DNA of 59,007 nt, taken from assembly GCA_024508935.1 (NCBI GenBank), contig JANINW010000003.1, forward strand, positions 1 through 59,007, given 5' to 3'. Positions 3,511 through 59,007 of this stretch are shown here, one piece after another; within the stretch, counting starts at the first letter, position 1; each line of letters starts with the position of its first letter. Made by a program: the position numbers and the translations under genes. Under the pieces are notes generated by a model. The model was not told the DNA's origin and did not search any database. It was given only the letters and a program-made list of their open reading frames with translations. This DNA comes from Flavipsychrobacter sp. (GTDB taxonomy: Bacteria; Bacteroidota; Bacteroidia; Chitinophagales; Chitinophagaceae).

Positions 3511-4065
3511 TTACATAGGTGTAGCTGTATAAAGCACATTTACCTCGTATATACCCGGAGGCAGCTGCAGGCCTGGAGTGGCTTTGAACCGTACTGTAAA
3601 CGCCTGGTTATCACCATAGTTGCCATTAGATATCAGTGTAACCGGGGCAGTTGATATGGAATTATAATCAGTTAAAGCTATACCACCGGTCTGGTTGTCC
3701 TCTACTTTTACTTTAAGGATACCATTTAAAGGTACAGGTGCCTGTGATTCCTCCCCGTCATACCTGAATGTACCTGAAGTAGTGGTTAAGAATACCTTGA
3801 AGTGCTGGTTTGTTTTAACTACCAGGTTTTGTTTAGGTGTTTCAAGGCCTTTCATCATTTCATCCATACCTGGGAAGAACATTGTAATAAGGTCGCCGGA
3901 GCCATTTACTAAACCTATCGCAATCACATCACCTACCTTCAGGTTGGTGCGCTGGGCGGCGCCGGCAGATGACGCTTCCTGTGCGAATGCCGCAGTACTC
4001 ATGCAGCCTGCCACGAGGGCGATGCTGAGCCATTTTGCGAGGTTTTTAAATTGGGTCATTTTCAT
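3511..4065 (-). CDS. Secreted beta-rich protein, function unknown
   Basis: This is a 184-residue protein from the ATG at 4065 (a second ATG at 4059 is also possible; upstream in-frame sequence is low-complexity leader). Residues 1-30 form a signal peptide (basic start, hydrophobic ALVAGCMSTAAFAQ, cleavage after AFAQ). The mature part contains NLKVGDVIAIGLVNGSG near its start and ends in LPPGIYEVNVLYTATPM, a pattern like the last strand of secreted beta-sandwich domains. There is no T9SS tail. The family is not recognised. A leader of about 75 nt separates the start from a possible -7 box (GATATTTG, 4148-4141), with phased TTAA tracts further upstream. Confidence 0.75.
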   Translation of the reverse strand: MKMTQFKNLAKWLSIALVAGCMSTAAFAQEASSAGAAQRTNLKVGDVIAIGLVNGSGDLITMFFPGMDEMMKGLETPKQNLVVKTNQHFKVFLTTTSGTFRYDGEESQAPVPLNGILKVKVEDNQTGGIALTDYNSISTAPVTLISNGNYGDNQAFTVRFKATPGLQLPPGIYEVNVLYTATPM

Positions 4066-4185
4066 GTTCGTTTGTTTGATTTTTTTGTTTTGGATAGGTG
4101 TGTTTTCTAAACGGTAATGTGTTTTTGTTTGTTTGTACAGCAAATATCTTACGCTGCATGAGCCGGGAGAAATATTTTGAGCCTG

Positions 4186-4222
4186 TTAACTGTGCATTTA
4201 CAGCCACTTAACAAGCGCTTAA
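4186..4222. promoter_or_regulatory. Short phased TTAA array
   Basis: TTAA occurs at 4186, 4208 and 4219, with the variant TTAC at 4198. This is an approximately 11-bp spacing in the gap between the divergent genes 3511-4065 and 4329-4892. TTAA is its own reverse complement, so the array could serve either gene. The same pattern is far clearer at 30000-30080 and 33602-33673. Confidence 0.35.
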
Positions 4223-4328
4223 TAAATGGGTTTATTCCTGTTTTGAGCCTCGTCCCCTTGTATAGCCCGCAAACAGCGTGATATAGCGCGTATAATTATT
4301 AGTTTTACGCCTTGTTATTAAATGTTTT

Positions 4329-20635: not shown

Positions 20636-20762
20636 ACTTATTAACTAAAAGCAATTATTATCAAGGCAATTAATATTTTTTTAATTGCATACCATGTAAA
20701 ATATATGTAATTTTCTATTGCAATTTGAGAGAATTGCCAAGATTTATTTTAAACCCAAGACT

Positions 20763-22580
20763 ATGCGCTCCTTTCTACCACTACTAAAAACATGGTGCCT
20801 GCTTGCATTAGCTATTGTTTGCAACCTTAACCAGGCCAACGCTCAATCCGTAATTGCTTCCGGATACATTTTTACAGCTAGCTCAAAAACATTTAACTAT
20901 GTAACAGGAGGTACATCTGTGTCTGCCATTGAAACGGATGACAATTGGGCAAACCTTCCCATCGGATTTACATTTACATTCTGTGGTGTAGACTATACGG
21001 ATGTTTGTGTGTGTTCAAACGGGTGGTTAAGGTTTGGTACCGGTGTAGGTACAGCCAGTGCCAACTGGAACTTTAATGCTTCTCCCGGGTCTGGTATAGA
21101 ACCTGCGGTGTTTGCGTTATATGAAGATGTGAGCGGCGCTTCAGGTTCTGCAAACTATGTAGTAACCGGTACTTCTCCCAACAGGGTGTTTACAATGGAA
21201 TGGAGGGACTGGCTTTGGGATTACGCTGCCTCAAACCCCAGTGTAACCTTCCAGGTAAAATTGTATGAAACAACTAATAAGATTGAGTGTATTTATAAAC
21301 AAGAAGCAGGATCTGTAGCTGTTAATTCAAGCGGCGGAGCATCAATTGGTATATCAAACAGTGCTACCGACTGGCAGGTGCTGACAGATGTTACATCTGC
21401 ACCTGTATCTTCATCTACAACATATACCGGCACCTTAAGTAGCCTGCCGGTTACCGGGCAAAGTTATGAATGGGACCCCGGTGCGCCTTGTCCTAAACCT
21501 ACACCTATTAACATCACTAATTTCAATTCAAAAGGTGTGACTTTCGATTGGCCGGCCATTACCGGTTCTGCAGGGTATGAATATGTAGTTGATAAGAATT
21601 CAGGTTCTCCTGCTACAGCAGGTACACCTACAACAGGTAACAGCGCTACGGTCGGAGGGCTTATTCCAAGTACTGCTTATTACATACATGTCCGCAATAA
21701 ATGCAGTGCTTCTAATATTTCTAAATGGGAAACATTATCCTTCCAGACAAGACCTGATTGTACAGAACCGCAAAATGTGCAAGCTAACAATGTAGATTCT
21801 AATTCGGCTGTCATATACTGGACGCCTGTACCAGCAGCCAGTCCTTACCAGTATATTGTAGATAACAGCAATGTTCTTATACCGCCCGATCTTACTAATG
21901 TGCAATCAACCACCACAAATGGTATGAACCTTACCGCGCTTAATTCAGGAGTAGATTATTATGTACACGCAAGAAGTTTGTGCGCGGGCAATGATAGTTC
22001 TGCCTGGGTACTGTTCCCATTCCATACACCGTTATCTTGTAAAACGCCTGCGCTTGCTACTACAACCGTTAGCAATCATGATGCAGTGATTTATTGGCCT
22101 TCTATAAATACGGCTATGGGTTATGAGTATGTATTAGACCAATCACAAGCTACGCCACCATTAGGCACACCATTAGCCAGTCCGTATTTTCATGCCAACC
22201 CCCTCGCTGCCGATGAAACCTATTATTTACATGCTAGAGCTATGTGTACCGATCATAATATAAATACCACATCGCCATGGGCGCTGGTAGAGTTCCATAC
22301 CTTGCCTCCTACCGGCATTGCAGGATTGGCTGCAGGTATTGCACCTGGTATGCAACTGTCTCCTAACCCGGTAAAAAGCATATTGGCTGTAAAAGTGACT
22401 TATAATACGAATAATGTTCAAAGTGTTTCTGTTTATAACCTGGATGGACAACTGGTAAAGAAAGTTGCAATGAATAAAAATGAATGCGAGGTAAACATGG
22501 ATAAATTACCGGCGGGGCTATACATTGTCACCTACAAGGATGGTGAGCATACTGAATCTCAGCGTGTTATTAAGCAATAA
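20763..22580 (+). CDS. T9SS-secreted protein with three Fn3-like domains
   Basis: This is a 605-residue protein from the ATG at 20763; an in-frame TTG upstream is not needed. A signal peptide (about 1-28, ending ANAQ) is followed by a beta-sandwich region (about 30-235) containing NWANLPIGFTFTFCG and CSNGWLRFGTG. Three Fn3-like repeats follow (about 240-330, 333-425 and 426-515), each with a 'VIYWPSI....GYEYV' strand and a Cys pair. A T9SS tail starts LSPNPVKSILAV and ends RVIKQ. Its Fn3 repeats and tail resemble those of the four beta-helix proteins downstream. A possible -7 box TAATTTTC lies at 20708. It is probably a surface adhesin or binding protein. Confidence 0.85.
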   Translation: MRSFLPLLKTWCLLALAIVCNLNQANAQSVIASGYIFTASSKTFNYVTGGTSVSAIETDDNWANLPIGFTFTFCGVDYTDVCVCSNGWLRFGTGVGTASANWNFNASPGSGIEPAVFALYEDVSGASGSANYVVTGTSPNRVFTMEWRDWLWDYAASNPSVTFQVKLYETTNKIECIYKQEAGSVAVNSSGGASIGISNSATDWQVLTDVTSAPVSSSTTYTGTLSSLPVTGQSYEWDPGAPCPKPTPINITNFNSKGVTFDWPAITGSAGYEYVVDKNSGSPATAGTPTTGNSATVGGLIPSTAYYIHVRNKCSASNISKWETLSFQTRPDCTEPQNVQANNVDSNSAVIYWTPVPAASPYQYIVDNSNVLIPPDLTNVQSTTTNGMNLTALNSGVDYYVHARSLCAGNDSSAWVLFPFHTPLSCKTPALATTTVSNHDAVIYWPSINTAMGYEYVLDQSQATPPLGTPLASPYFHANPLAADETYYLHARAMCTDHNINTTSPWALVEFHTLPPTGIAGLAAGIAPGMQLSPNPVKSILAVKVTYNTNNVQSVSVYNLDGQLVKKVAMNKNECEVNMDKLPAGLYIVTYKDGEHTESQRVIKQ

Positions 22581-22659: not shown

Positions 22660-22719
22660 AATCCGTTTCATTTCCCAATTATCCCGTTTCAGCATTATTG
22701 AGTTTGGCATAACAGTTTT

Positions 22720-22787
22720 TTAATGGAATTTTCATTCATATTTAATCTTGTTTTTAACAATTTTAATACGATTTTAAAAAGGATTAA
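22720..22787. promoter_or_regulatory. Phased TTAA array upstream of beta-helix gene 1
   Basis: TTAA starts at 22720, 22742, 22754, 22763, 22774 and 22784. The first gap is 22 bp (two helical turns, with a TTCATT at the midpoint); the others are 9-12 bp. A -7 box after the array is unclear (TAACGTTC at 22808 is weak), so the link to transcription is less certain than for genes 3 and 4. Confidence 0.5.
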
Positions 22788-22828
22788 CTACGAATTTGAT
22801 AAATGCGTAACGTTCTAAATACATATAA

Positions 22829-25800
22829 ATGAAACAATTCAACATTCTCAAATTGTTTATGCCCTTATTGCTGGCGCTGGGATCTTACCAGTCCGCCTGG
22901 GCCCTTGCCGGGGGCACTTACACGATCGGTGCAGGTGGAAACTATTCCAACCTTGCCGCTGCGGTGTCTGATCTTAACCTGGGTATAACAGGGCCTGTTG
23001 TGTTTAACGTACTGCCCGGTACTTATTCTGGTACGGGCTGGCAGGGGCTTATTGGTAACGTTACCGGGGCAAGCTCCACCAATACAATTACCTTCCAGGC
23101 ACAAAACGGGCCTGGTACTGCAAGCATTAGTTTTGCAGGTACATCTACCGCTAACTATGTGTTTGGATTGAATAGTGCGCGGTATGTAACTATACGCAAC
23201 CTGACGCTGGCAAACACCAATACTTCTTATGGTAATGTTGTTCGCATGATGGGCACTGCTTCATTCAATACAATTGCAGGTTGCCGTCTTGTAGGACCTT
23301 CTGTCAGCTCATCAAGTGCCGATCTTGCAGTTGTATGGGCCGGGCAGTCTGGCAACGTGTTTACTGGTAGTGATATAACCTGCCAGAATGATACTTTCCA
23401 GAATGGTAGTGCGGCTTACTGGTCTTACGGTAGTGCTTCTACCAATCTGACTATGAACCATACAATAACCAACTGCCAGATAAATAACCCGTATTATAGT
23501 TTGTTGTATTGCTATTATACAGGTAATATCAATGTATCTGGTTGCTCTTTTACAGCCAACAGTTCCGGTCTTAACTATGGTTTTTATTTCTACTATCCGG
23601 GTAATGGTGTAAGCTTTACGAATAACACTGCTAATATTACTACTACCTATTCAGGGCACTATACATTCTATTGGTATAACGTAAACTATACTTCCGGCGT
23701 TCAGGGTACTACTACCAATGCGTATAATACCATCAACGTAAACTCTACTTCAAATACGGTTTACGGCATGTATCACTATTATAACTATAATATGACCATG
23801 CAAAACAATACGTACAATTTCAATGGTACCTCAGGTACTATTTATGCACCGTATTACATGGCCTATTATTGGAATGCCGGTTCTGTAGCAAAAAACAATA
23901 CAATCAATGTTACTGTAACTACTGGTACTGCTTATGTGAATGGCGTTTGTGCCGGAGCAAGCGGTACTGCTGTTAGAAATAATACATTCAATGCTACCGC
24001 AACAGGTTCAGGTGCTGCTCATGCGGGCTATTACCTGAACGCATACGGTACAAGCGACACGGTAGAGAACAATACATTCAATGCAACTACAACATCCGGT
24101 TCTTGTTATAGTTACAAATACGGAGAAACGGGCCTGACACGTAATAATACTTTCAACCTTAACTCCACGTCAGGTACTATCTACAATTATTTCTATTACA
24201 TGAATGCTGCTAACTTCCGTAACAATACCATCAAGATGAATAGTACTACAGGTACCATTTACGGATGTTACGATTACAACTATTACAGCAGCAATACGGC
24301 AGTAAGCACTATTGCATACAATACATTCGATGCAAGAAGCTCGTCTGGTGGTACTGTATATGCTTATTACAATGCTGGTACTCCGGTAGCAGGGGCTGAA
24401 TACGTAAGCAATCTGTTTACTACAAACACATCGGGTACATCTTACCTGTTGTATCCAACAGCCAACCCTGGGGCTGATATGAAATTTATACACAACACAT
24501 TCCACAGCAACAGTACAGGTACTGTCAACTATCTTGTATACACCCCTGCCGGCAGCTCTACTTATCCCGGCAAATACATCCTTACCAATAATATTTTCTC
24601 AAGAATTAATAATAATGGTACTGCTGTTTACCGCGGCGATACTACTTACAACAGGGCAGACTATAACCTGTATTATTCAGGTGGTGGGGTGCAGACTTTC
24701 CAATGTGGTAGCCCTGCAATTACCACGACTTCTTTGCAAACATGGCGCACAAGTACACGTGGTTTCGATATGAATTCACTAACCTATGATCCTGGCTTTG
24801 TATCACCTGCTACTTATGATTTCCGCCCAAGTGCTGGTAATGCGAATGCCTGGTCTGTAAATGGCCGCGGTACGCATCTTGCCAATGATACAATGGACAT
24901 AGCCGGTAATGCACGCGCCCGTACCAAACTGCAGGGTGTGCCTGATTTGGGAGCATACGAATTTACTCCAACCAGTACACCACCAGATGCAATAGCTACG
25001 CCTGCTACGCCTGCTGCAAATACTGCCCAGACATTTACTTTTGGACAGGATACGGTATGTGTGATAAACTGGGGAGCTACGGTGCCTGCAACTGCTACTG
25101 TTAAACAATATACCGGGGTACAAGCTACAGGTATACCAGCCGGTGTAGGAAAAATGTTCTTCTATAATGATGTAGCCACTACACTTGGCGTATATAGCTA
25201 TAAAGCAGTACCATATTATAAAGATCCGTGGATAGGAGATATCAGTACTGAGCCTAATGCACGTATTGCAAAATCAAGCAACGGTGCTTCATGGGCCGGG
25301 TATAATTATACCAATGGTATAACAGATATAAATCGCAACACCATGACTACTGCCGCTTTCCTGGATAGTATGCCATCACGTTTTACAGGTGTTGAGAATG
25401 CACGTATAGGTATACGTTGTGTAATAGCACCAACAGGTTTAAAAAGCAATGGTGTGACAGCATTTACTGCAACCGAAACATGGGATGCTGTATTTTCTCC
25501 TATCGGTTACCAATATGTTTATAAGAATGTAAAAGGTACACCTGTCACAGGTACGCCTGCTTATTTTGTTAGTTCTAATAGTGCACCATTAACCGGCCTT
25601 ACAGAAGATACGACATACTATATCTATGTACGCACAATCTGCGGTCCCGGCGATACATCGGGCTGGGCACTGGACTCTTTCCATACCATCATCAGTTGTC
25701 ATGCGCCTGACCTGAAGCTTTCTTATATGGACAGCAAACAGGCTGTTATATACTGGGCGCCTATAAAAACTGCAGTAGGTTATGACTGGGCTGTGACTAC

Positions 25801-26227
25801 AGATGCTAATCCGCCTGCCAACGGCACGCCAACAGCAAGTACTTCATTATTGGCTGCTTACCTGGCACCGGGCACTACTTATTACGCACACGTTCGTTCA
25901 AGGTGCAGTACTATTTACAGTCAATCGGGCTGGTCAACTATTTCATTCAAAACCTGGACAACAGGTGTAGATAATGTGAGCGGAAGTGCAATAGGTCTAA
26001 TAGCCTATCCAAATCCTGTAAAAGAAGTACTTACCGTAAATATGCAGGGTGTGCGGGCTAACAATGCACAGTTGACTATAATTGATATTACGGGCAAAAT
26101 AGTACGTAGTATGGCTGTAGTTTCAGATAAGAATGAGATCAATATGAATGGGCTCTCTTCTGGTGTATATATATTAAAATACAGTGACGATGCCCATACT
26201 GAAATGACTAAGATTACAAAAGAATAG
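22829..26227 (+). CDS. T9SS-secreted beta-helix protein, paralogue 1
   Basis: This is an 1132-residue secreted protein. The signal peptide covers about 1-26 (SAWA-L). A conserved head, GGTYTIGAGGNYSNLAAAVSDLNLGITG, opens a right-handed parallel beta-helix (about 27-700). Its coils repeat an NNTFN-like asparagine ladder and Tyr-rich strands roughly every 26-30 residues. The helix ends at DLGAYEF (about 706-712), as in 'choice-of-anchor Q' beta-helix proteins. Fn3-like domains follow (about 860-950 and 955-1040), then a T9SS tail (about 1045-1132, YPNPVKEVLTV to KITKE). No pectate-lyase-type catalytic triad was recognised, so an adhesin role is likelier than an enzyme. It has its own terminator. 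Confidence 0.85.
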   Translation: MKQFNILKLFMPLLLALGSYQSAWALAGGTYTIGAGGNYSNLAAAVSDLNLGITGPVVFNVLPGTYSGTGWQGLIGNVTGASSTNTITFQAQNGPGTASISFAGTSTANYVFGLNSARYVTIRNLTLANTNTSYGNVVRMMGTASFNTIAGCRLVGPSVSSSSADLAVVWAGQSGNVFTGSDITCQNDTFQNGSAAYWSYGSASTNLTMNHTITNCQINNPYYSLLYCYYTGNINVSGCSFTANSSGLNYGFYFYYPGNGVSFTNNTANITTTYSGHYTFYWYNVNYTSGVQGTTTNAYNTINVNSTSNTVYGMYHYYNYNMTMQNNTYNFNGTSGTIYAPYYMAYYWNAGSVAKNNTINVTVTTGTAYVNGVCAGASGTAVRNNTFNATATGSGAAHAGYYLNAYGTSDTVENNTFNATTTSGSCYSYKYGETGLTRNNTFNLNSTSGTIYNYFYYMNAANFRNNTIKMNSTTGTIYGCYDYNYYSSNTAVSTIAYNTFDARSSSGGTVYAYYNAGTPVAGAEYVSNLFTTNTSGTSYLLYPTANPGADMKFIHNTFHSNSTGTVNYLVYTPAGSSTYPGKYILTNNIFSRINNNGTAVYRGDTTYNRADYNLYYSGGGVQTFQCGSPAITTTSLQTWRTSTRGFDMNSLTYDPGFVSPATYDFRPSAGNANAWSVNGRGTHLANDTMDIAGNARARTKLQGVPDLGAYEFTPTSTPPDAIATPATPAANTAQTFTFGQDTVCVINWGATVPATATVKQYTGVQATGIPAGVGKMFFYNDVATTLGVYSYKAVPYYKDPWIGDISTEPNARIAKSSNGASWAGYNYTNGITDINRNTMTTAAFLDSMPSRFTGVENARIGIRCVIAPTGLKSNGVTAFTATETWDAVFSPIGYQYVYKNVKGTPVTGTPAYFVSSNSAPLTGLTEDTTYYIYVRTICGPGDTSGWALDSFHTIISCHAPDLKLSYMDSKQAVIYWAPIKTAVGYDWAVTTDANPPANGTPTASTSLLAAYLAPGTTYYAHVRSRCSTIYSQSGWSTISFKTWTTGVDNVSGSAIGLIAYPNPVKEVLTVNMQGVRANNAQLTIIDITGKIVRSMAVVSDKNEINMNGLSSGVYILKYSDDAHTEMTKITKE

Positions 26228-26316: not shown

Positions 26317-26382
26317 TTAAAATAAGGTAAAAAAATTATTAAATATTGATTAAAAAAGTTAACTTGATTAAAAATTTATTAA
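26317..26382. promoter_or_regulatory. Phased TTAA array upstream of beta-helix gene 2
   Basis: TTAA starts at 26317, 26339, 26350, 26359, 26368 and 26379. Spacings are 22, 11, 9, 9 and 11 bp. TACTTTAA at 26406, 27 bp after the last tract, could be the -7 box, which would give a very short leader before the ATG at 26427. The region is very AT-rich, so chance contributes more here than before genes 3 and 4. Confidence 0.45.
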
Positions 26383-26426
26383 TAAACAAACTGGTTTACT
26401 CCAATTACTTTAAAAAAACGCCGGAA

Positions 26427-29400
26427 ATGAAGCATTTTAACATTTTCAAATTAATGATGCCTGTACTGTTGTCGCTGGTATCCTATCAATCGGCCTGGGC
26501 GCTTGCCGGAGGAACTTATACAATCGGTTCGGGAGGTAACTATACTACCCTGGCTGCCGCTGTATCTGATCTTAACCTCGGTATTACCGGCCCTGTGGTA
26601 TTTAACATCCTTCCCGGTACCTATTCGGGTACAGGCTGGCAAGGTCTTATCGGTAATGTTACCGGTGCAAGTGCTACCAATACCATTACATTCAAATCCC
26701 AGAATGGTCCGGGTACAGTTAGCATTAGTTTTGCTGGTACATCGTCTGCCAACTATGTCTTTGGTTTAAATGGTGCCAGTTATGTAACTATTAAAAATCT
26801 TACTTTAAGTAATACCAGTACTACCTATGGTAACGTCATCAGGTTTACAGGTACATCTACATTTGATAGTGTAGTAGGTTGTAAAATGTCCAGCCCGGTT
26901 GTTTCTTCAACTAGTGCAGACGTGGCAGTAGTGCAGGCGGGTAGCTCAAGCGCTACTTTCCCGGGTGGAGACTTAGTATTTAAATCAGATACCTTCCAAA
27001 ACGGTAGTGCAGCGTATTGGGCTTACGGCCCAAGTGCACTTACTTCAAATCATACATTTGATGGTAATGTAATCACCAATCCATATTACTGTTACATGTA
27101 CCTGTATTATGTAGGTAATGCAAAAGTGGCTAACAACTCATATACCGCTAACAGCTCTGGCATGAACTACGGGTTTTACAGCTACTATGTAGGTAATAAC
27201 TACGAGTTCAGGAATAATGTTATTAATACCACTACCACTTATTCAGGTCACTATGCTTTCTATTTCGCATATATCAACTATAACAGCGGGCAGCAGGGTA
27301 TTACAACATTTGCCAATAATACCTCTACCGTAAACTCAACCAGTAATACAATATACGGTACCTATTTCCTTTACAACTACAATACAACCATGACTAATAA
27401 TACGTTTAGCGTATCGGGTACCACAGGTACTTGCTACAACCCGTATTACATGGCTTATTACTGGAATGCGGGATCTGTGGCATCTAACAACGTGTTCAAT
27501 ACTTCTGTAACAACAGGTGGTGCATACAACTACATCATAAATTACTATACAACCGGTACACGTGTTGTCAATAATACGTTCAATGCAAATGCATCGGGTA
27601 GTGGTACGGTATATAGTCCTTACTATACAATGTATGGTGCTACTTCTTCAAGCACCAGCAATAATACCTTCAATGCCACCACTGCTTCAGGTTCGGGTAC
27701 GAGCCTGTATTATATGAACTATAATGGTAGCTCTGATACAGTTGATAACAATACCTTCAACATGACGGCGCCAGGTGGTATTACTTCATACAAGTATTAT
27801 ATGGTTGGTGTAAACCGCAATAATACTTTTAACTGGAATGTAACATCAGGTACGTTGAACAATTACTTCTACTATCCTGATGGATGCCTGTTCTCTGGCA
27901 ATAAGTTTAATTTGACCAGTACTTCAGGCCTTATTTATGGTGCCTATGTATATGGTACTACGTCTTATGCCGGTGGTAACTTCATCAACAACGTATTTGA
28001 CGCCCGCAGTACATCAAGCGGCACTGTGTACGGGTTCTATGGCCAGTATTCAAAAGACAATACGTTCATAAATAATATTTTCGCGAATACTACAGCAGGT
28101 ACAAGCTACCTCTATTACAACCCAAGCGGTTATTACGGCGATAATAAATTTTACAATAATACCTTCCATAGCAACAGCACCGGTACAGTTAACTACCTGC
28201 TGTATAATAGCGCCGGTAACACCACTTATTTGGGTAAAGCTATTCTGAGTAACAACATCTTCTCCCGTTTGAACAATAACGGTAATGCTGTTTACCTGGG
28301 AGACACTGCTTACTCAAAATTGGACTATAACTTGTATTATTCAGGTGGCGCAGCACATACTTACCAGTGCGCATCTCCGGCTTTAACAACTACATCATTA
28401 AATACATGGCGTGGTGCAACTAAACAAGATCTGAACTCACTTTCTTATGACCCGGGTCTGACCAGTCCGTCTACTTATGATTTCAGGCCGAATGCGGCTA
28501 ATGCCAATGCTTGGTCTGTAAACGGCCGTGGTAACCATTTTGCAAATGATACTGCTGATATCTTAGGTGTAGCACGTGCTAAAAACCGCTTCCAGGGTGT
28601 ACCAGACCTTGGGGCTTATGAATTTGTGCCAACCAGCACGCCACCTGCAGCAATAGCTAATCCGGCTGCTCCTGTAGCCAGTGCACCACAGGCTTTCACT
28701 TTTGGTGAAGATACAGTTTGTGTTATCAACTGGGGCGCTGTAGTGCCTGCTTCAGCTACTGTAAGGCAGTATACAGGTACACAAGCTGCTGGCATACCAA
28801 CCGGCGTAGGCAAAATGTACTTCTATAATGATGTAGCTACTACATTGGGCGTATACAGCTATAAAGCAGTGCCATATTATAAGAACCCATGGCTGGGCGA
28901 TATCAGCTCAGAAACAAATGCGCGTATCGCTAAATCAAGCAACGGTGCTGCTTGGGCAGGATATAACTATACCAATGGTATTACAGATACTAACCGTAAT
29001 ACAATGACGACAGCAGCATTTTTAGATAGTATGCCTTCGCAGTTTACCGGTGTTGAAAATGCACGTATCGGTATACGTTGCGTAGTAGCACCTTCAGGCC
29101 TCAAGAGCAATGCTGTGACTGCGTATACTGCAACAGAAACCTGGGATGCTGTGTTCTCACCTATCGGCTACCAATATATTTACAAGACAAAGAAAGGTAC
29201 CCCTACAAGTGGTGCCGGCGCTTACTTCGTAACATCTAACAGTGCGGCATTAACTGGTCTGACAGAAGATACTACTTACTATATATATGTACGTACTATA
29301 TGCGGCCCTAACGATACATCTGGCTGGGCTTTGGATTCTTTCCATACTATTATCAGCTGCCATGCACCAGATCTGAAACTGTCTTATTTGGATAGCAAAC

Positions 29401-29888
29401 AGGCTGTTGTTTATTGGGCGCCTATTAAAACTGCAGTAGGTTATGAGTGGGCAATTAGTACAGATGCTAATCCGCCTGCAAATGGTACCCCAACTGCAAA
29501 TACTTCTATACTGGCAGCGTATCTTGCTCCTGGTACTACTTATTATGCACACGTACGCTCAAATTGTAACACAGTATATAGCCAGTCAGGCTGGTCTACG
29601 CTTTCTTTCAAGACATGGGCTACAGGTGTGGATAATGTAAGCGGTGGTACAATGGGACTGATGGCTTATCCAAACCCTGTAAAAGAAGTATTGACCATAG
29701 ATATGAAAGGTATTCGCGCCAACAATGCTCAGCTTACAGTAAGTGACATTACCGGTAAAGTATTACGCATGATGAATGTTGCTGCCGATAAAACAGAAAT
29801 CAATATGAATGGTTTATCATCAGGCGTTTATATACTGAAGTATAGTGACGATGCACATACTGAAACAATAAAAGTGACCAAGGAATAA
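26427..29888 (+). CDS. T9SS-secreted beta-helix protein, paralogue 2
   Basis: This is an 1153-residue protein from the ATG at 26427; an upstream in-frame frame adds 27 lysine/asparagine-rich residues that would precede a normal signal peptide and are probably untranslated. The architecture is that of paralogue 1: signal peptide (about 1-26), head GGTYTIGSGGNYTTLAAAV, beta-helix to DLGAYEF (about 727-733), Fn3-like domains (about 885-1060), and a T9SS tail ending KVTKE. It carries one more approximately 29-residue coil module (around SNNTFNATTASGSG) than paralogues 1 and 3. Its middle section is the closest match to that of paralogue 4. Probably a cell-surface or released adhesin. Confidence 0.85.
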   Translation: MKHFNIFKLMMPVLLSLVSYQSAWALAGGTYTIGSGGNYTTLAAAVSDLNLGITGPVVFNILPGTYSGTGWQGLIGNVTGASATNTITFKSQNGPGTVSISFAGTSSANYVFGLNGASYVTIKNLTLSNTSTTYGNVIRFTGTSTFDSVVGCKMSSPVVSSTSADVAVVQAGSSSATFPGGDLVFKSDTFQNGSAAYWAYGPSALTSNHTFDGNVITNPYYCYMYLYYVGNAKVANNSYTANSSGMNYGFYSYYVGNNYEFRNNVINTTTTYSGHYAFYFAYINYNSGQQGITTFANNTSTVNSTSNTIYGTYFLYNYNTTMTNNTFSVSGTTGTCYNPYYMAYYWNAGSVASNNVFNTSVTTGGAYNYIINYYTTGTRVVNNTFNANASGSGTVYSPYYTMYGATSSSTSNNTFNATTASGSGTSLYYMNYNGSSDTVDNNTFNMTAPGGITSYKYYMVGVNRNNTFNWNVTSGTLNNYFYYPDGCLFSGNKFNLTSTSGLIYGAYVYGTTSYAGGNFINNVFDARSTSSGTVYGFYGQYSKDNTFINNIFANTTAGTSYLYYNPSGYYGDNKFYNNTFHSNSTGTVNYLLYNSAGNTTYLGKAILSNNIFSRLNNNGNAVYLGDTAYSKLDYNLYYSGGAAHTYQCASPALTTTSLNTWRGATKQDLNSLSYDPGLTSPSTYDFRPNAANANAWSVNGRGNHFANDTADILGVARAKNRFQGVPDLGAYEFVPTSTPPAAIANPAAPVASAPQAFTFGEDTVCVINWGAVVPASATVRQYTGTQAAGIPTGVGKMYFYNDVATTLGVYSYKAVPYYKNPWLGDISSETNARIAKSSNGAAWAGYNYTNGITDTNRNTMTTAAFLDSMPSQFTGVENARIGIRCVVAPSGLKSNAVTAYTATETWDAVFSPIGYQYIYKTKKGTPTSGAGAYFVTSNSAALTGLTEDTTYYIYVRTICGPNDTSGWALDSFHTIISCHAPDLKLSYLDSKQAVVYWAPIKTAVGYEWAISTDANPPANGTPTANTSILAAYLAPGTTYYAHVRSNCNTVYSQSGWSTLSFKTWATGVDNVSGGTMGLMAYPNPVKEVLTIDMKGIRANNAQLTVSDITGKVLRMMNVAADKTEINMNGLSSGVYILKYSDDAHTETIKVTKE

Positions 29889-29934: not shown

Positions 29935-29999
29935 GTGTTATTTATTAGCTGTGATGTGAATTTGATATAATTAACTTGTTCTTAATTATGTAAGTGTAT

Positions 30000-30080
30000 T
30001 TAATTCCTGTTTAATGGAATGTTTAACTCTGTTTAATCAATTGTTTAATGCAATTTAATCGGTCATTAACTGGCTTTTAA
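30000..30080. promoter_or_regulatory. Strongly phased TTAA array upstream of beta-helix gene 3
   Basis: Eight consecutive TTAA tracts start at 30000, 30011, 30023, 30033, 30045, 30055, 30066 and 30077. Spacings are 11, 12, 10, 12, 10, 11 and 11 bp, a mean of exactly 11. Most are TTTAAT or TTTAAC. Two more at 29971 and 29982 are also 11 bp apart. The last tract lies 26 bp before the -7 box, that is, in the -33 position. Between the tracts the bases differ, so this is not a simple tandem repeat. Confidence 0.75.
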
Positions 30081-30102
30081 GACTGCGGAATAGCTGCTTG
30101 GT

Positions 30103-30110
30103 TACTTTTA
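30103..30110 (+). promoter_or_regulatory. -7 box of beta-helix gene 3
   Basis: TACTTTTA (TAnnTTTA) sits 26 bp after the last TTAA tract and is followed by TGATATG. The same arrangement occurs before gene 4 at 33696. It implies a leader of about 75 nt. Confidence 0.55.
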
Positions 30111-30188
30111 TGATATGTGAATAAAGCTATTTTGTTCATATTAATAATACAATAAAAGGTATATCATAAACATTTAAAGCAGTTTATC

Positions 30189-33100
30189 ATGAAGCTTATT
30201 TACAATGCGAAAGCTGCATTCTTATCGTTCTCCTGTTTAGTGCTGAGCCAGGCTGCATTGGCGCTTGGTGGTGGTACTTATACCATAGGCTCCGGTGGTA
30301 ACTATACCAACCTTGCCGATGCTGTGTCTGACCTTAACCTGGGTATTACCGGCCCTGTAGTATTTAATATACTTCCCGGCAGCTATTCCGGTACCAACTG
30401 GAAAGCAGAGATCACTAATGTTACGGGTGCCAGCTCTACCAATACAATTACTATACAGGCACAAAATGGCCCGGGTACAGTATCTATCAGTGCGGCAGGC
30501 TCTTCGTCTGATAATTATGTAATAGGCCTGAGCAGTGCTAATTATGTGAGTATCAAAAATCTTACGATTTCCAATACAAGCACTTCTTATGGAAATGTGA
30601 TACGTTTCACCGGAACAGCATCTTATGATAGTGTGCTGGGTTGTAAATTATCTTCTCCCAGCACTTCTTCCAGTTCGCAGAACATGGCAGTTGTTTTAGC
30701 GGGTTATTCAGGTGGCTCTTTTACAGGGGGTAATCTTGTGTTTGACAATGATACATTTCAAAATGGTAGTGCCTCTTATTGGACATACGGTTCGAGCACA
30801 TCGAACCTGACCCAAGGGCATAAGATTACAAATTGCTATGCAACGGGAGCTTACTATTACTTATTGTATAGTTATTATGCCGGCGATTTCAACATTAGTA
30901 ATAACACATTTATCAGCAACAGCTCAGGGCTTTATCGCGGCTTTATGATGTATTATACCGGTAATGGGCTTACTTTCTCTAATAATGATGTAAATATCAA
31001 TTCAAACTATTCAGGCCATTATACTTTTTACCTGTATTATAGTAACTATTACGTTACAGGACAGACTATATTTACCAATAATAATATCAATGTAGCAACT
31101 ACCAGCGGTACTAAATATGCTACTTATCTGCCATACAATCAGAATGTAGAATTTGCCAACAATACATTTACCTATACCGGTACTTCTGCCACCATATATA
31201 ACCCATATTACCTGGCCTATGGCTGGAATGCAGGGTCTTCGGCACACAACAATACATTCAACGCGAATACTACAAGTGGTAGCCCCAATTCGCCATATTA
31301 CCTGCAGTATAGTTCCAACGGTACCAGTATAAGGAATAATGTTTTTAATTCAACTGCCACAACCGGCAGCGCTTCCAGTTTTTGTTATTACCTGAATTAT
31401 TCAGGATCTAACGATACTGTAGAAAACAATACTTTCAATGTTAATACCCCTGGTGGAATTTCGTCTTATAAATATTACACCAGTAACCTGACCCGCAATA
31501 ACACCTTCAATATGTCTACGGGTAATGGTACTTTAAACAATTATTTCTATTACCCCAATGGTGGTTTGATCACAGACAATACGTTTAATCTATCAAGCAC
31601 CGGGGGTACTATTAATTCTATGTACGTCTATGGTTCGTCTTCGTACATGGGCGGTGTTTTTTCAAATAATATTTTCGATGCGCGTAGTACTTCAGGGACT
31701 ATCTATGGTTTTTACGGGCAGTATTCAAAAGGCAATATACTCCTCAATAATGTGATAACAACGCAAACGTCGGGGTCTAGTTATTTGTATTATAAGCCTA
31801 ACGGGTACTATGGCGACAATAAATTCTATAACAATACGTTCCACAGTAATAGCACCGGTGCCACTAACTATTTAATATACCATTCTTCGGGTGGTTCCTC
31901 TACGTACAGTGGTAAAGCCTACCTGAATAACAATATTTTTTCGCGACTGAACAATAACGGTACTGCTGTTTACATTGCTGATACCGTCTATTTTAAAAGC
32001 GATTATAATCTCTACTATTCAGGTGGTGCGGCACATACCTATCAATGCGCCAATCCTGCTGTTACTGCTACTGCATTGCAAAGCTGGCGCACGGCTACGC
32101 ACCAGGACATGAACTCATTGAGTTATGATCCGGGATTTAAAGACCCAGCAGCATTTAATTTTGAACCGGATGCAACTAATGTAAACGCTTGGTCGGTGAA
32201 CGGAAGAGGTACTCATTTAGATGGTGATACCATGGACATTAACGGTGTAACACGCGCGAAGACCCGTTTCCAGGGAGTGCCGGATCTGGGTGCGTATGAA
32301 TTTGTACCAACGACTACACCACCAGCAGCGGTAGCTACTCCTGCAAGCCCTGTAGCGAGCACACCACAGGCGTTCACATTTGGTGAGGATACCGTATGTG
32401 TAATCAACTGGGGTGCTTCTGTTCCTACGTCTGCCACAGTAAGGCAGTATACAGGTATACAGGCAACGGGTATGCCTGCCGGTTTTGGCAAGATGTATTT
32501 CTACAACGATGTAAGCACCCCGCTGGGCGTGTATAGCTATAAGGCAGTACCGTATTACAAGAACCCATGGCTGGGCGATATCAGTTCTGAAACGAATGCG
32601 CGTATAGCCAAATCAAGCAATGGTGCATCATGGCAAGGATATAACTATACCAATGGTATTACCGATACGATCCTTAATACGATGACCACCGCCGCCTTCT
32701 TAGACAGTATGCCATCTAAATTCACCGGTGTAGAGAACGGCCGTATCGGTATCCGCTGCGTAGTAGCACCAAGTGGTCTTCAGAGTTCAGCGGTAACGGC
32801 TTTCTCAGCTACAGAAACCTGGGATGCGGTATTTGCACCGATAGGTTACCAGTATATCTATAAATTAACCAAAGGCACACCAACCAGCGGTACAGGGTCT
32901 TATTTTGTGACCAGCAACAGTGCACCGCTTACAGGCCTTGTAGAAGATACCACCTACTATATTTATGTACGCACCATCTGCGGACCAAACGATACCTCAG
33001 GCTGGGCTGTAGATTCCTTCCATACGATCATCAGCTGCCATGCACCTGACCTGAAACTGTCGTACCTGGATAACAAGCAGGCAGTGGTCTATTGGGCAAC

Positions 33101-33566
33101 CGTTAAAACAGCAGTAGGGTATGACTGGGCAATAAACACTGACGCTAACCCACCGGCAAATGGTACACCAACCACCAATACATCTATATTGGCAGCTTAT
33201 CTAGCCCCCGGTACTACGTATTATGCGCATGTACGCTCTAACTGTAATACGATGTACAACCAGTCAGGCTGGTCAACGATCTCGTTCAAGACCTGGGCAA
33301 CGGGTGTAGAAAATGTAAGTGGTAGCAGCATAGGATTGATGGCTTATCCAAACCCGGTAAAAGAAGTGCTGACGGTAAATATGCAGGGTATCCGTTCGAA
33401 CAATGCACAGTTGACGGTAAGCGATATCACGGGTAAAGTGGTACGTACCATAGCAGTAAGTGCAGACAAGACCGAGATCAATATGAATGGCTTATCATCA
33501 GGTGTATACATCCTGAAATACAGTGATGATGCCCACACTGAAACCATTAAACTGACCAAGGAGTAA
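30189..33566 (+). CDS. T9SS-secreted beta-helix protein, paralogue 3
   Basis: This is an 1125-residue protein with the family architecture: signal peptide (about 1-25, QAALA), head GGTYTIGSGGNYTNLADAV, asparagine-ladder beta-helix up to DLGAYEF (about 698-704), Fn3-like domains (about 860-1035) and a T9SS tail (about 1041-1125) ending KLTKE. Residues from GVTRAKTRFQGV (about 686) to the end are identical to those of paralogue 4, because the DNA from 32244 to the stop codon is almost the same in both genes. The beta-helix part is clearly more diverged. No terminator is visible after the stop codon. Confidence 0.85.
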   Translation: MKLIYNAKAAFLSFSCLVLSQAALALGGGTYTIGSGGNYTNLADAVSDLNLGITGPVVFNILPGSYSGTNWKAEITNVTGASSTNTITIQAQNGPGTVSISAAGSSSDNYVIGLSSANYVSIKNLTISNTSTSYGNVIRFTGTASYDSVLGCKLSSPSTSSSSQNMAVVLAGYSGGSFTGGNLVFDNDTFQNGSASYWTYGSSTSNLTQGHKITNCYATGAYYYLLYSYYAGDFNISNNTFISNSSGLYRGFMMYYTGNGLTFSNNDVNINSNYSGHYTFYLYYSNYYVTGQTIFTNNNINVATTSGTKYATYLPYNQNVEFANNTFTYTGTSATIYNPYYLAYGWNAGSSAHNNTFNANTTSGSPNSPYYLQYSSNGTSIRNNVFNSTATTGSASSFCYYLNYSGSNDTVENNTFNVNTPGGISSYKYYTSNLTRNNTFNMSTGNGTLNNYFYYPNGGLITDNTFNLSSTGGTINSMYVYGSSSYMGGVFSNNIFDARSTSGTIYGFYGQYSKGNILLNNVITTQTSGSSYLYYKPNGYYGDNKFYNNTFHSNSTGATNYLIYHSSGGSSTYSGKAYLNNNIFSRLNNNGTAVYIADTVYFKSDYNLYYSGGAAHTYQCANPAVTATALQSWRTATHQDMNSLSYDPGFKDPAAFNFEPDATNVNAWSVNGRGTHLDGDTMDINGVTRAKTRFQGVPDLGAYEFVPTTTPPAAVATPASPVASTPQAFTFGEDTVCVINWGASVPTSATVRQYTGIQATGMPAGFGKMYFYNDVSTPLGVYSYKAVPYYKNPWLGDISSETNARIAKSSNGASWQGYNYTNGITDTILNTMTTAAFLDSMPSKFTGVENGRIGIRCVVAPSGLQSSAVTAFSATETWDAVFAPIGYQYIYKLTKGTPTSGTGSYFVTSNSAPLTGLVEDTTYYIYVRTICGPNDTSGWAVDSFHTIISCHAPDLKLSYLDNKQAVVYWATVKTAVGYDWAINTDANPPANGTPTTNTSILAAYLAPGTTYYAHVRSNCNTMYNQSGWSTISFKTWATGVENVSGSSIGLMAYPNPVKEVLTVNMQGIRSNNAQLTVSDITGKVVRTIAVSADKTEINMNGLSSGVYILKYSDDAHTETIKLTKE
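32244..33566 (+). repeat. 1323-bp near-identical block, copy A
   Basis: This segment matches 35925-37247 at a constant offset of 3681 bp. By eye I find three differences (32276, 32279 and 33548). It covers the end of the beta-helix, the Fn3-like domains and the T9SS tail, and similarity ends at the stop codon. Confidence 0.92.
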
Positions 33567-33601
33567 GGATTTAAGATTGCTAAAAATATTTGTTTACATA
33601 T

Positions 33602-33673
33602 TTAATTGTTATTTTTAATCTCGTTTTAATTTTATTATAATGCCTCATTAATGTCGTTTTAATGCTCTTTTAA
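33602..33673. promoter_or_regulatory. Strongly phased TTAA array upstream of beta-helix gene 4
   Basis: TTAA starts at 33602, 33615, 33626, 33648, 33659 and 33670. The expected position 33637 holds the variant TATAA. After the first gap of 13 bp every step is exactly 11 bp. The last tract is 26 bp before the -7 box, the same distance as for gene 3. Confidence 0.75.
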
Positions 33674-33695
33674 CGGTAGCGTTTTCGCATGCAAG

Positions 33696-33703
33696 TATCT
33701 TTA
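33696..33703 (+). promoter_or_regulatory. -7 box of beta-helix gene 4
   Basis: TATCTTTA (TAnnTTTA) is followed by TGATATG, as before gene 3. The leader is about 75 nt and includes a hairpin. Confidence 0.55.
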
Positions 33704-33748: not shown

Positions 33749-33782
33749 AGGAACATATTGTAAAACAGGTAAATTTTTGTTT

Positions 33783-36700
33783 ATGAGATACTTTTCCATG
33801 TTAAAAAAGACAGCCTTATCGTTAGCTGTAGTGGCAGGGGCCTGCCAGGGCGCCTGGGCATTAAGCGGAGGTACCTATACGGTCGGTTCAGGAGGTAATT
33901 ATACCACTCTGGCCGACGCTATCTCTGACCTTAATCTTGGTATAACCGGTCCAGTAGTATTTAATATACTACCCGGTACTTATTCCGGTACCAACTGGAA
34001 AGGGGAAATAACTAATGTAACGGGTGCCAGTGCTACTAATACCATTACTATCCAGGCACAGAACGGGCCGGGAACAGTGAGTATAAGTTCTGCAGGTACA
34101 TCCACGGCCAAATATGTAATTGGCTTTACAAGTGCCAGTTATGTTACTATTAAAAATCTTTCGATAACGAATACCAGTACTACCTATGGCAATGTGCTTC
34201 GTTTTACCGGTACTGCTTCCAATAACAACGTTTTAAACTGTAAACTGACCTCTCCAACCACTACCTCCAGCTCTACAGATATGGCTGTAGTGCAGGCGGG
34301 TTATTCAGGCGGCTCTTTTACCGGTGGTAATCTTGTGTTTGATAATGATACCTTTCAAAATGGTAGCACCTCTTACTGGGCCTATGGTTCCAGCACTTCA
34401 AACCTGACACAAGGGCACACAATTACCAACAGCCTTTTGACAGGTGCGTATTATTATCTCTTGTACTCTTATTACGGAGGTAATTTTAATATCTCAAACA
34501 ATACTGTGACCAGCACAAGTAATGGATTGGCTTACGGGTTTTATATGTACTATACCGGCAATGGCCTGACATTCTCAAATAATAATGTCAACGTAACTTC
34601 TACCTATTCCGGCCAGTATATGTTTTACCTTTACTATAGCAACTACTACGTGGCAGGGCAAACTATATTTACCAATAATAATGTGACAATGACCACTACA
34701 AGTGGTACGAAGTATAGTCACTACATGCCTTATAACTATAACCTGGAGTTTGCTAATAACACGTTTACATTTACAGGTACTTCAGCTACCATTTATTGCC
34801 CTTATTATGCGGCATATGGCTGTAATACAGGTTCAACAGTGCATAATAATACCTTCAACGCTTCAGTTACAACCGGTGGTGCATACACTTATATGATCAA
34901 TTATGCTACAACCGGTACCCGCATTTATGATAATACCTTCAATGCTACTGCTTCCTCCAGCGGCTCATTGTATTCTCCGTATTATTTAATGTATAGCTGC
35001 ACAGGTTCCAGCAACAGGAATAATACATTCAATGCTACCTCTGCCAGCGGCTCTGCACAAGCATTATACTACATGTGTTATTCAGGAAGTACTGATACGA
35101 ACGAGAACAATACATTCAATCTTACAGCACCTGCCGGTATATCATCAAACAAATATTATACAATAGGCATAAACCGTAATAATGTTTTTAACTGGAACAC
35201 TACATCCGGCACTATTTATAATTATTTCTATTATCCTGACGGTGCATTGTTTGCGAACAATAAGTTCAATTTGAACAGTACTACCGGTACTATTTACAGC
35301 GCTTATGTATACGGTACTACCTCTTATGCAGGCGGTAATTTCAATGGCAATGTTTTTGATGCCCGCAGCTCATCTGGTGGTAGTGTATATGGTTTTTATG
35401 GCCAGTATTCGAAAGACAACACTTTTATAAACAACATCTTTGCTAATACTACTACCGGTACCAGCTATCTCTATTACAATCCGAGCGGATTTTACGGCGA
35501 TAATAAATTCTATAATAATACTTTTCACAGTAACAGTACCGGTACTACCAACTACCTGTTATACAATGCGGCAGGTAGCACTACCTATAATGGTAAAGCT
35601 TACTTGAGTAATAATATTTTCTCTCGACTGAACAATAATGGTACGGCCGTTTATATTGGTGATACTGTTCGTTCAAGGCTTGATTATAACCTGTATTATT
35701 CAGGCGGTTCAGTACACAATTATCAATGTGGTAGCCCTGCCATTACTACATCTGCATTGCAGGCATGGCGCAGTGCCACTAAACAAGATCTGAACTCATT
35801 GACGTATGACCCGGGAATGGTTGATCCTGCGAACTATGATTTCAGGCCAAATGCCAGTAATGTGAATGCATGGTCTGTAAATGGCCGTGGCAACCACTTT
35901 GCCGGCGATACCATGGATATCCTGGGTGTAACACGCGCGAAGACCCGTTTCCAGGGGGTACCGGATCTGGGTGCGTATGAATTTGTACCAACGACTACAC
36001 CACCAGCAGCGGTAGCTACTCCTGCAAGCCCTGTAGCGAGCACACCACAGGCGTTCACATTTGGTGAGGATACCGTATGTGTAATCAACTGGGGTGCTTC
36101 TGTTCCTACGTCTGCCACAGTAAGGCAGTATACAGGTATACAGGCAACGGGTATGCCTGCCGGTTTTGGCAAGATGTATTTCTACAACGATGTAAGCACC
36201 CCGCTGGGCGTGTATAGCTATAAGGCAGTACCGTATTACAAGAACCCATGGCTGGGCGATATCAGTTCTGAAACGAATGCGCGTATAGCCAAATCAAGCA
36301 ATGGTGCATCATGGCAAGGATATAACTATACCAATGGTATTACCGATACGATCCTTAATACGATGACCACCGCCGCCTTCTTAGACAGTATGCCATCTAA
36401 ATTCACCGGTGTAGAGAACGGCCGTATCGGTATCCGCTGCGTAGTAGCACCAAGTGGTCTTCAGAGTTCAGCGGTAACGGCTTTCTCAGCTACAGAAACC
36501 TGGGATGCGGTATTTGCACCGATAGGTTACCAGTATATCTATAAATTAACCAAAGGCACACCAACCAGCGGTACAGGGTCTTATTTTGTGACCAGCAACA
36601 GTGCACCGCTTACAGGCCTTGTAGAAGATACCACCTACTATATTTATGTACGCACCATCTGCGGACCAAACGATACCTCAGGCTGGGCTGTAGATTCCTT

Positions 36701-37247
36701 CCATACGATCATCAGCTGCCATGCACCTGACCTGAAACTGTCGTACCTGGATAACAAGCAGGCAGTGGTCTATTGGGCAACCGTTAAAACAGCAGTAGGG
36801 TATGACTGGGCAATAAACACTGACGCTAACCCACCGGCAAATGGTACACCAACCACCAATACATCTATATTGGCAGCTTATCTAGCCCCCGGTACTACGT
36901 ATTATGCGCATGTACGCTCTAACTGTAATACGATGTACAACCAGTCAGGCTGGTCAACGATCTCGTTCAAGACCTGGGCAACGGGTGTAGAAAATGTAAG
37001 TGGTAGCAGCATAGGATTGATGGCTTATCCAAACCCGGTAAAAGAAGTGCTGACGGTAAATATGCAGGGTATCCGTTCGAACAATGCACAGTTGACGGTA
37101 AGCGATATCACGGGTAAAGTGGTACGTACCATAGCAGTAAGTGCAGACAAGACCGAGATCAATATGAATGGCTTATCATCAGGTGTATACATCCTGAAAT
37201 ACAGTGATGATGCCCACACTGAAACCATCAAACTGACCAAGGAGTAA
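33783..37247 (+). CDS. T9SS-secreted beta-helix protein, paralogue 4
   Basis: This is an 1154-residue protein from the ATG at 33783; an in-frame TTG six bases earlier is less likely. The signal peptide covers about 1-27 (QGAWA). The head GGTYTVGSGGNYTTLADAI and first third resemble paralogue 3 (shared GYSGGSFTGGNLVFDNDTF). The middle third resembles paralogue 2 (shared TTGTR and YGTTSYAGGNF) and has the extra coil module. From GVTRAKTRF to the end it is identical to paralogue 3. DLGAYEF lies at about 727-733 and the T9SS tail at about 1070-1154. The gene therefore looks mosaic. The role is inferred to be adhesive or surface-layer-like; no enzyme motif is seen. Confidence 0.85.
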   Translation: MRYFSMLKKTALSLAVVAGACQGAWALSGGTYTVGSGGNYTTLADAISDLNLGITGPVVFNILPGTYSGTNWKGEITNVTGASATNTITIQAQNGPGTVSISSAGTSTAKYVIGFTSASYVTIKNLSITNTSTTYGNVLRFTGTASNNNVLNCKLTSPTTTSSSTDMAVVQAGYSGGSFTGGNLVFDNDTFQNGSTSYWAYGSSTSNLTQGHTITNSLLTGAYYYLLYSYYGGNFNISNNTVTSTSNGLAYGFYMYYTGNGLTFSNNNVNVTSTYSGQYMFYLYYSNYYVAGQTIFTNNNVTMTTTSGTKYSHYMPYNYNLEFANNTFTFTGTSATIYCPYYAAYGCNTGSTVHNNTFNASVTTGGAYTYMINYATTGTRIYDNTFNATASSSGSLYSPYYLMYSCTGSSNRNNTFNATSASGSAQALYYMCYSGSTDTNENNTFNLTAPAGISSNKYYTIGINRNNVFNWNTTSGTIYNYFYYPDGALFANNKFNLNSTTGTIYSAYVYGTTSYAGGNFNGNVFDARSSSGGSVYGFYGQYSKDNTFINNIFANTTTGTSYLYYNPSGFYGDNKFYNNTFHSNSTGTTNYLLYNAAGSTTYNGKAYLSNNIFSRLNNNGTAVYIGDTVRSRLDYNLYYSGGSVHNYQCGSPAITTSALQAWRSATKQDLNSLTYDPGMVDPANYDFRPNASNVNAWSVNGRGNHFAGDTMDILGVTRAKTRFQGVPDLGAYEFVPTTTPPAAVATPASPVASTPQAFTFGEDTVCVINWGASVPTSATVRQYTGIQATGMPAGFGKMYFYNDVSTPLGVYSYKAVPYYKNPWLGDISSETNARIAKSSNGASWQGYNYTNGITDTILNTMTTAAFLDSMPSKFTGVENGRIGIRCVVAPSGLQSSAVTAFSATETWDAVFAPIGYQYIYKLTKGTPTSGTGSYFVTSNSAPLTGLVEDTTYYIYVRTICGPNDTSGWAVDSFHTIISCHAPDLKLSYLDNKQAVVYWATVKTAVGYDWAINTDANPPANGTPTTNTSILAAYLAPGTTYYAHVRSNCNTMYNQSGWSTISFKTWATGVENVSGSSIGLMAYPNPVKEVLTVNMQGIRSNNAQLTVSDITGKVVRTIAVSADKTEINMNGLSSGVYILKYSDDAHTETIKLTKE
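35925..37247 (+). repeat. 1323-bp near-identical block, copy B
   Basis: This is the partner of 32244-33566 (differences seen at 35957, 35960 and 37229). The flanking DNA on the 3' side is unrelated, so identity stops at the stop codon. Confidence 0.92.
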
Positions 37248-58876: not shown

Positions 58877-58938
58877 TTAAGATCTGTTTGTTAATCGCTG
58901 GTTAAGCGTTTGTCAAGCCGGGGTTAAAACGGCATTAA
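58877..58938. promoter_or_regulatory. Phased TTAA array at the right edge
   Basis: TTAA starts at 58877, 58891, 58902, 58924 and 58935, with TCAA at 58913. From 58891 onward every step is exactly 11 bp. CATCTTTG at 58965, close to TAnnTTTG, follows 30 bp after the last tract, and an AAACAAAC-rich leader runs to the window end. The controlled gene lies beyond 59007. Confidence 0.65.
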
Positions 58939-59007
58939 AATTTCCTTGTGGTGATATACCGCCGCATCTTTGTGTCATCAAAGGAAAAACAAACAAAATT
59001 TTAAAAT

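Follow-up and report, generated by a model that had tools for sequence, protein, structure and literature searches.

The question raised by a 59,007-nucleotide stretch of Flavipsychrobacter sp. DNA (GenBank assembly GCA_024508935.1, contig JANINW010000003.1, positions 1 to 59,007; hereafter the window) is what role is played by the arrays of TTAA tracts, repeated once per helical turn, which precede two large genes encoding secreted beta-helix proteins. The answer proposed here, which we hold to be probable on the evidence of sequence patterns and of analogy with known regulators, is that the arrays are tandem direct-repeat operators of a protein binding head-to-tail, most likely a response regulator of the OmpR/PhoB family.

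The genes in question are the third and fourth of four tandem beta-helix genes (genes 1 to 4). The array before gene 3 (29990..30087, forward strand) holds eight TTAA, at 30000, 30011, 30023, 30033, 30045, 30055, 30066 and 30077 (spacings of 11, 12, 10, 12, 10, 11 and 11), and the proposed -7 box of this gene, TACTTTTA (30103..30110, forward), starts 26 bp past the start of the last tract, a distance kept in homologues. Before gene 4 (array at 33602..33680, forward), TTAA stands at 33602, 33615, 33626, 33648, 33659 and 33670, with ATAA at 33637 (spacings of 13, 11, 11, 11, 11 and 11), and the proposed box, TATCTTTA (33696..33703, forward), again lies 26 bp from the last tract. A preliminary description of the locus had given these spacings and the distance to a TAnnTTTA box, and both were found again. 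The TGATATG it reported after the box follows at both genes but, unlike the box and the distance, is not kept in homologues. Similarly, the positions of its eight jittered tracts before gene 3 are exact, but the jitter vanishes in a strict 11-bp register counted from 30000, where 8/8 units start with TTAA or TTTAA; the apparent spacings of 10 and 12 thus come from the reading within T runs. Before gene 4, six units keep the strict register from 33615.

Gene 3 (30189..33566, forward) encodes a secreted beta-helix protein of 1125 amino acids with a C-terminal sorting domain of the type IX secretion system (T9SS), Por_Secre_tail being over its cut-off and Beta_helix below its curated cut-off, while gene 4 (33777..37247, forward) encodes a paralogue of 1156 amino acids, with 74% identity in the aligned part. 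Since the two genes are paralogous and their upstream regions are still weakly alignable, this pair alone is not independent, which qualifies the earlier claim that the tracts are not a copied repeat; as far as sequence comparison can tell, the independent support for the spacing is that from other species.

The arrays are real. Each upstream region was given a chain score (1 per exact TTAA, 0.4 per one-mismatch unit, minus 0.2 for a spacing of 10 or 12), which was compared with 2000 dinucleotide-preserving shuffles of the same region. The observed score was reached by 0/2000 shuffles for gene 3, 1/2000 for gene 4 and 0/2000 for gene 1, and by 233/2000 for gene 2, which has no outstanding array; for two further arrays, before a gene at 3511-4143 and at the window end, the counts were 0/2000 and 1/2000, respectively. 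At period 11, 360 kb of DNA from the same genome, chosen irrespective of arrays, contained no jittered chain of at least 4 and one of at least 3.4, and a score of at least 3.6 was seen in none of 325 upstream regions of control open reading frames (ORFs). A search of the genome for TTAAN{6,8}TTAAN{6,8}TTAA gives 30 occurrences, and one for the reversed pattern gives 9. Over 13 genomes of the genus, this one included, the figures are 348 and 122, with the excess present in every genome, whereas seven genomes of other families show no excess (239 against 288). The relatives came from a protein search and are mostly metagenome assemblies labelled Flavipsychrobacter, Chitinophagaceae bacterium or Taibaiella; labels like Azovibrio and uncultured Bacteroides look wrong. 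The genome searches suggested in the preliminary description therefore set the genus apart from other families, neither shuffled nor control DNA often yields an array, and its reading of selection on spacing with one-turn phasing is supported.

Elsewhere, strong arrays are found in front of genes for small secreted proteins that belong to a single family (the S family, about 180 amino acids), with 0 to 28 matches in a genome and members in 14/15 genomes of the genus. Their promoters carry the clearest form of the array in the genus, a four-unit module of 48 bits present in 61 of 93 promoters (114 family ORFs gave 94 distinct upstream regions once duplicates and short ones were dropped, and one with N was excluded). 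Its consensus is TTGTTAATCGC TcGTTAACCGg TTGCAAAtcaG GGGTTAACaAG, the unit being TTGTTAAC-like, directional and non-palindromic; TTAA is preceded by a conserved G and followed by C or T, and GTTAA forms the core of units 1, 2 and 4. When spacings from 9 to 13 were freely allowed, 61/61 modules picked 11, 11 and 11, the register of an 11-bp direct repeat. With [TCA]AnnTTTG as the -7 box pattern and distances taken from the start of the last TTAAC, the box lies at 43 bp in 43 modules and at 42 bp in seven (50/61 altogether), and at neither in 11; four of these exceptions (loci L142, L146, L156 and L158) have it 64 bp away, two extra units filling the gap as judged by eye.

The S weight matrix was built from close paralogues, and the second set examined, of 78 S loci (76 with enough upstream DNA), shares species and genes with the first. 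Once 24 loci with a module identical to a training one had been set aside, 45 of the remaining 52 scored at least 20 bits, with the box at 43 bp in 35 and at 42 bp in 10. Among control ORFs that score was reached by 1/325, itself an S gene. Module and S gene counts go together over 15 genomes (r = 0.90), 12 of which hold 17 to 25 module copies each; genome G003 has no S gene yet one module. When 27 genus-wide hits were inspected, 19 stood before an S gene, five had no ORF available and three preceded something else. Across the order (79 genomes, including this one) two others match, G091 once (E value 1.5e-5, inside an ORF) and G044 twice, weakly, and under stricter filters 0/4 other genera of the family contained the module. 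An S-type module also accompanies one target that is not an S gene, a protein of 89-110 amino acids, alike by eye, in three genomes (G000 at C4:22048, L207; G004, L385; G006, L387).

The distances to the box can be understood from the core promoter. In a flavobacterium, the -7 box has been reported at -12 to -5 (PMC9723704). S promoters have a TTTG- or TTTC-like -33 element 24-25 bp before the -7 box, and in beta-helix promoters TTAA falls within one or two bases of that same position. Since 26 bp is the ordinary spacing from -33 to -7, the last tract before genes 3 and 4 (TTAA at 30077 in the former) appears to sit on the -33 element, and the 26-bp distance is, as read from the sequence, the core-promoter spacing. 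The last unit would thus cover -33 in beta-helix promoters, while in S promoters some 10 bp separate the end of the module from that element.

In the beta-helix family as a whole, 17/42 upstream regions contain a chain of at least 3.6, compared with 0/325 controls (six of the 42 regions lack an upstream stop and probably represent internal repeats). The forward polarity, TTTAAY, is seen in eight arrays: those of genes 1, 3 and 4, two in G020 and one each in G001, G010 and G011. A TAnnTTTR box is found at 26 bp (genes 3 and 4, one of G020, G001) or 27 bp (G010, G011, the other of G020) in 7/8, gene 1 having none. To judge by eye, G010/G011 and G020/G001 each resemble a pair of orthologues, which leaves about four independent lineages. 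The 26-bp distance noted at the outset is thus kept, within one base, by seven of the eight forward arrays, but not by 9/17 arrays, reversed or mixed in polarity. As to the tie with beta-helix and T9SS cargo genes that had been suspected, arrays do occur there but are also found elsewhere, the largest set being that before the pilin-like S family.

In the model that we favour, each 11-bp unit would be a half-site, TTGTTAAC-like in the S family and TTTTAAT-like before beta-helix genes. The protein would bind head-to-tail along one face of the DNA, 4 to 9 units accommodating two or more cooperating dimers. There are two layouts. In the distal one, the last unit stands 42-43 bp ahead of the -7 box, with a TTTG-like -33 element between them; in the overlapping one, seen at genes 3 and 4, the last unit falls on the -33 element itself. 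One regulator might serve both, most likely activating, rather than repressing, primary-sigma promoters of surface and secreted proteins. In period, core, directionality and number of units, OmpR/PhoB regulators match the arrays best: they bind 11-bp direct repeats (PMC4415409), can occupy three and four strictly spaced repeats by cooperative extension (PMC4832192), and in Synechocystis at least three tandem CTTAACCT repeats are separated by a 3-bp linker (PMC1906773). The genome encodes eight proteins over the cut-off for Trans_reg_C, the DNA-binding domain of the OmpR/PhoB type. Their nearest models are RprY (four), PhoB (one), RpaB and PhoB (one), Cus-like (one) and KdpE-like (one), and none of the eight reaches the NCBIfam cut-off of the model it fits best.

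Several observations weigh against this proposal. The main gap is that the OmpR-type regulators found genus-wide are shared with sister genera in which the module is absent, and the genomic pattern singles out none of the eight as the regulator. For instance, the RprY-like protein C6:324k is 91-94% identical in the 11 genomes compared, with a match in that identity band in 15/15, and recurs in three sister genera at 78-80%, with the same recognition helix by eye; of the sister genera sharing it, 0/2 searched with the model had the module, and likewise G034. Moreover, the genome encodes 10 LytTR proteins, 25/42 beta-helix upstream regions have no array, and the other nine beta-helix arrays, reversed or mixed in polarity, have boxes at 42, 32 and 29 bp in three cases and none in six. 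The two layouts are offset by about 17 bp, which is not a whole number of 11-bp units, and differ in unit consensus. Finally, 32/93 S promoters lack the module. Another element, TTAGTGAT-like, is carried by 19 of these 32 and by 0/61 of the promoters with the module. Tandem S clusters (L166, L167, L168, L169 and L175) show an array-less promoter class in which a conserved ACTACTAATGTTAGTGATGT-like element precedes a TATGTTTG box; what the 19 promoters carry is the core of this element.

Individual candidates were also considered. Of the 14 other genus genomes, three contain close orthologues (67-68%) of an RprY-like regulator that adjoins an array (C30:157971), making 4/15 in total, and a protein restricted to so few genomes cannot serve all arrays. 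The operon of this regulator, an RprXY-like two-component one (L019, 4494-8076; L039-L042), carries a pair of GTTAA cores at a distance of 10 bp in its promoter in 4/4 genomes, and the M43 peptidase gene that follows it has a 10-bp-spaced array, with five TTAA here and two in the other three genomes. The Cus-like regulator is encoded close to beta-helix clusters in G000, G020 and G001, but at the G000 cluster no array of at least 3.4 was found. A phosphate regulon was set aside, since the targets read code for surface proteins and none looks related to phosphate; promoters of pst and phosphatase genes lay outside this set. In L088 (14269-19698), an RprY-like gene without an adjacent kinase follows a PorP/SprF-like gene (by eye) and one for a large secreted protein.

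Among the alternatives, a tentative, more far-reaching and rather unlikely one is that a regulator devoted to these sites, and perhaps not of the two-component kind, coats four to nine units as a nucleoprotein filament and jointly controls the expanded pilin-like family and the T9SS-secreted beta-helix proteins in one Chitinophagaceae clade (Flavipsychrobacter and kin), with array length setting promoter strength.

It seems rather unlikely that the binder is a LytTR-family response regulator. In that reading one dimer would sit on the GTTAA cores of units 2 and 4, two turns from each other, and another would interleave with it on units 1 and 3. The GTTAA core of units 1, 2 and 4, which we take to resemble the LytTR core, and the 10 LytTR proteins would suit it, and a unit every 11 bp also contains 22-bp pairs. 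LytTR sites, however, are pairs about two turns apart, whereas here a unit recurs every 11 bp, strictly in 61/61 modules and in runs of 6 to 9 units. A precedent for direct repeats is that AgrA binds two, centred near -60 (PMC4227749). Slightly less likely still is a small BldC-like or other oligomerising protein coating the array head-to-tail as a filament; BldC does bind a variable number of direct repeats in that manner (PMC5859096), and the number of units here varies from 4 to 9, but it takes 9 bp per subunit, against the 11 bp of 61/61 modules, where a 9-bp register was not found. Proteins with HTH_17 are scattered, 1 to 9 per genome over 13 genus genomes, with no obvious shared one, orthology not having been worked out. 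Both kinds of binder thus fit the period less well than OmpR/PhoB regulators.

Weaker, and improbable in our judgement, is the possibility that no regulator is involved and that the tracts either serve RNA polymerase as an UP-like element or bend the DNA intrinsically. An UP element is an AT-rich stretch directly upstream of the -35/-33 region without conserved G or C, and the AT-rich phased tracts do reach the -33 region before genes 3 and 4. S promoters, however, keep G before TTAA and C after it, have G and C in the spacers, and retain a separate TTTG-like -33 element 24-25 bp before the box, above which the module ends. S modules do not match an UP element in view of these conserved bases, a result limited to them and not extending to the T-rich beta-helix arrays; neither UP-like nor bent DNA is favoured, because positions outside TTAA, above all the preceding G, are strongly conserved in S promoters. 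Of the explanations listed in the preliminary description, that of a protein cooperating along the promoter therefore stands, while the two others lose ground. That the arrays are chance products of AT-rich DNA or copies of one duplicated promoter can practically be dismissed. In its favour are the paralogy of genes 3 and 4, whose upstream DNA still aligns weakly, and the fact that S genes are multicopy paralogues, but shuffles, reversed-pattern counts, control ORFs and diverged spacers in a fixed register all contradict it.

The window contains three arrays besides those of genes 3 and 4. The first, a 12-unit chain with several degenerate units (22688..22817, forward), precedes gene 1 (22829..26227, forward; 1132 amino acids), of the same protein family as genes 3 and 4; no TAnnTTTR box was found 26 bp from it. 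Gene 2 (26346..29888, forward) belongs to the family too, so that 3/4 of the large tandem beta-helix genes have an array. Directly before the four lies a gene for a T9SS-sorted protein with a fibronectin type III domain (20718-22580). The second is a four-unit module, TTATTAAGCGC TTGTTAAGTGG CTGTAAATGCA CAGTTAACAGG (4183..4226, reverse strand), with a -7-like box, GATATTTG (4141..4148, reverse), 42 bp past the last TTAAC, whose first base is G, so that it falls outside the box pattern used in the counts. It precedes the gene of a small secreted pilin-like protein of the S family (3511..4143, reverse; likely start inside the ORF). The third, also of four units (58888..58931, forward), precedes a gene beyond the contig end, with a -7 box, CATCTTTG (58965..58972, forward), 42 bp past its last TTAA. 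Near-identical S promoters lie at several contig ends of this assembly (window 58888-59007; L025 1-87; ends of C23, C97, C95 and C6); S copy numbers are therefore lower bounds and probably undercounted.

An AlphaFold2 model of the S member in the window (mean predicted local distance difference test score 71.6; residues 1-43 under 50) had TLP-1a as its best Foldseek match (E value 5e-4), further matches including type 1, P and CS20 pilus subunits (E values 6e-3 to 4e-2, template modelling scores 0.3-0.4), which suggests a pilin-like fold. A literature search on TLP pili found nothing.

Among the matches listed in the literature searched, neither an element of this form nor such a regulon was found for this clade, and no Flavipsychrobacter paper on gene regulation, by title or abstract; motif words, looked for in one RprY paper (PMC6032018), are absent from it. 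The arrays would thus supply a precise, putative operator for a clade without such a regulon in those matches, and one kind of promoter would tie a multicopy pilin-like family to T9SS-secreted proteins. Moreover, paralogues differ naturally in the length and position of their arrays, which makes cooperative binding to tandem repeats testable across many native promoters.

Among known systems, LytTR sites presumably have a GTTAA-like core like the one seen here, but come in pairs about two turns apart rather than with a unit every turn; those of AgrA are also direct repeats upstream of a promoter (PMC4227749). The BldC sites of Streptomyces share a variable number of direct repeats, bound head-to-tail there (PMC5859096), but have a 9-bp unit with AATT and a C, compared with 11 bp and TTAA here. 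The sites of mycobacterial PhoP and E. coli PhoB are closer, with 11-bp direct repeats, head-to-tail dimers, strict spacing, and three and four repeats (PMC4832192, PMC4415409), whereas the present operators are predicted; the core sequence is another one, and the repeats there usually number two to four. The cyanobacterial Pho box, bound by SphR of the OmpR/PhoB family, differs in that it serves phosphate genes, while the arrays described here precede genes for surface and secreted proteins, have 4-9 units and adjoin a Bacteroidota promoter; like them, it has a TTAAC core and an 8-bp unit with a 3-bp linker, making 11-bp tandem repeats of at least three units (PMC1906773, PMC3264485).

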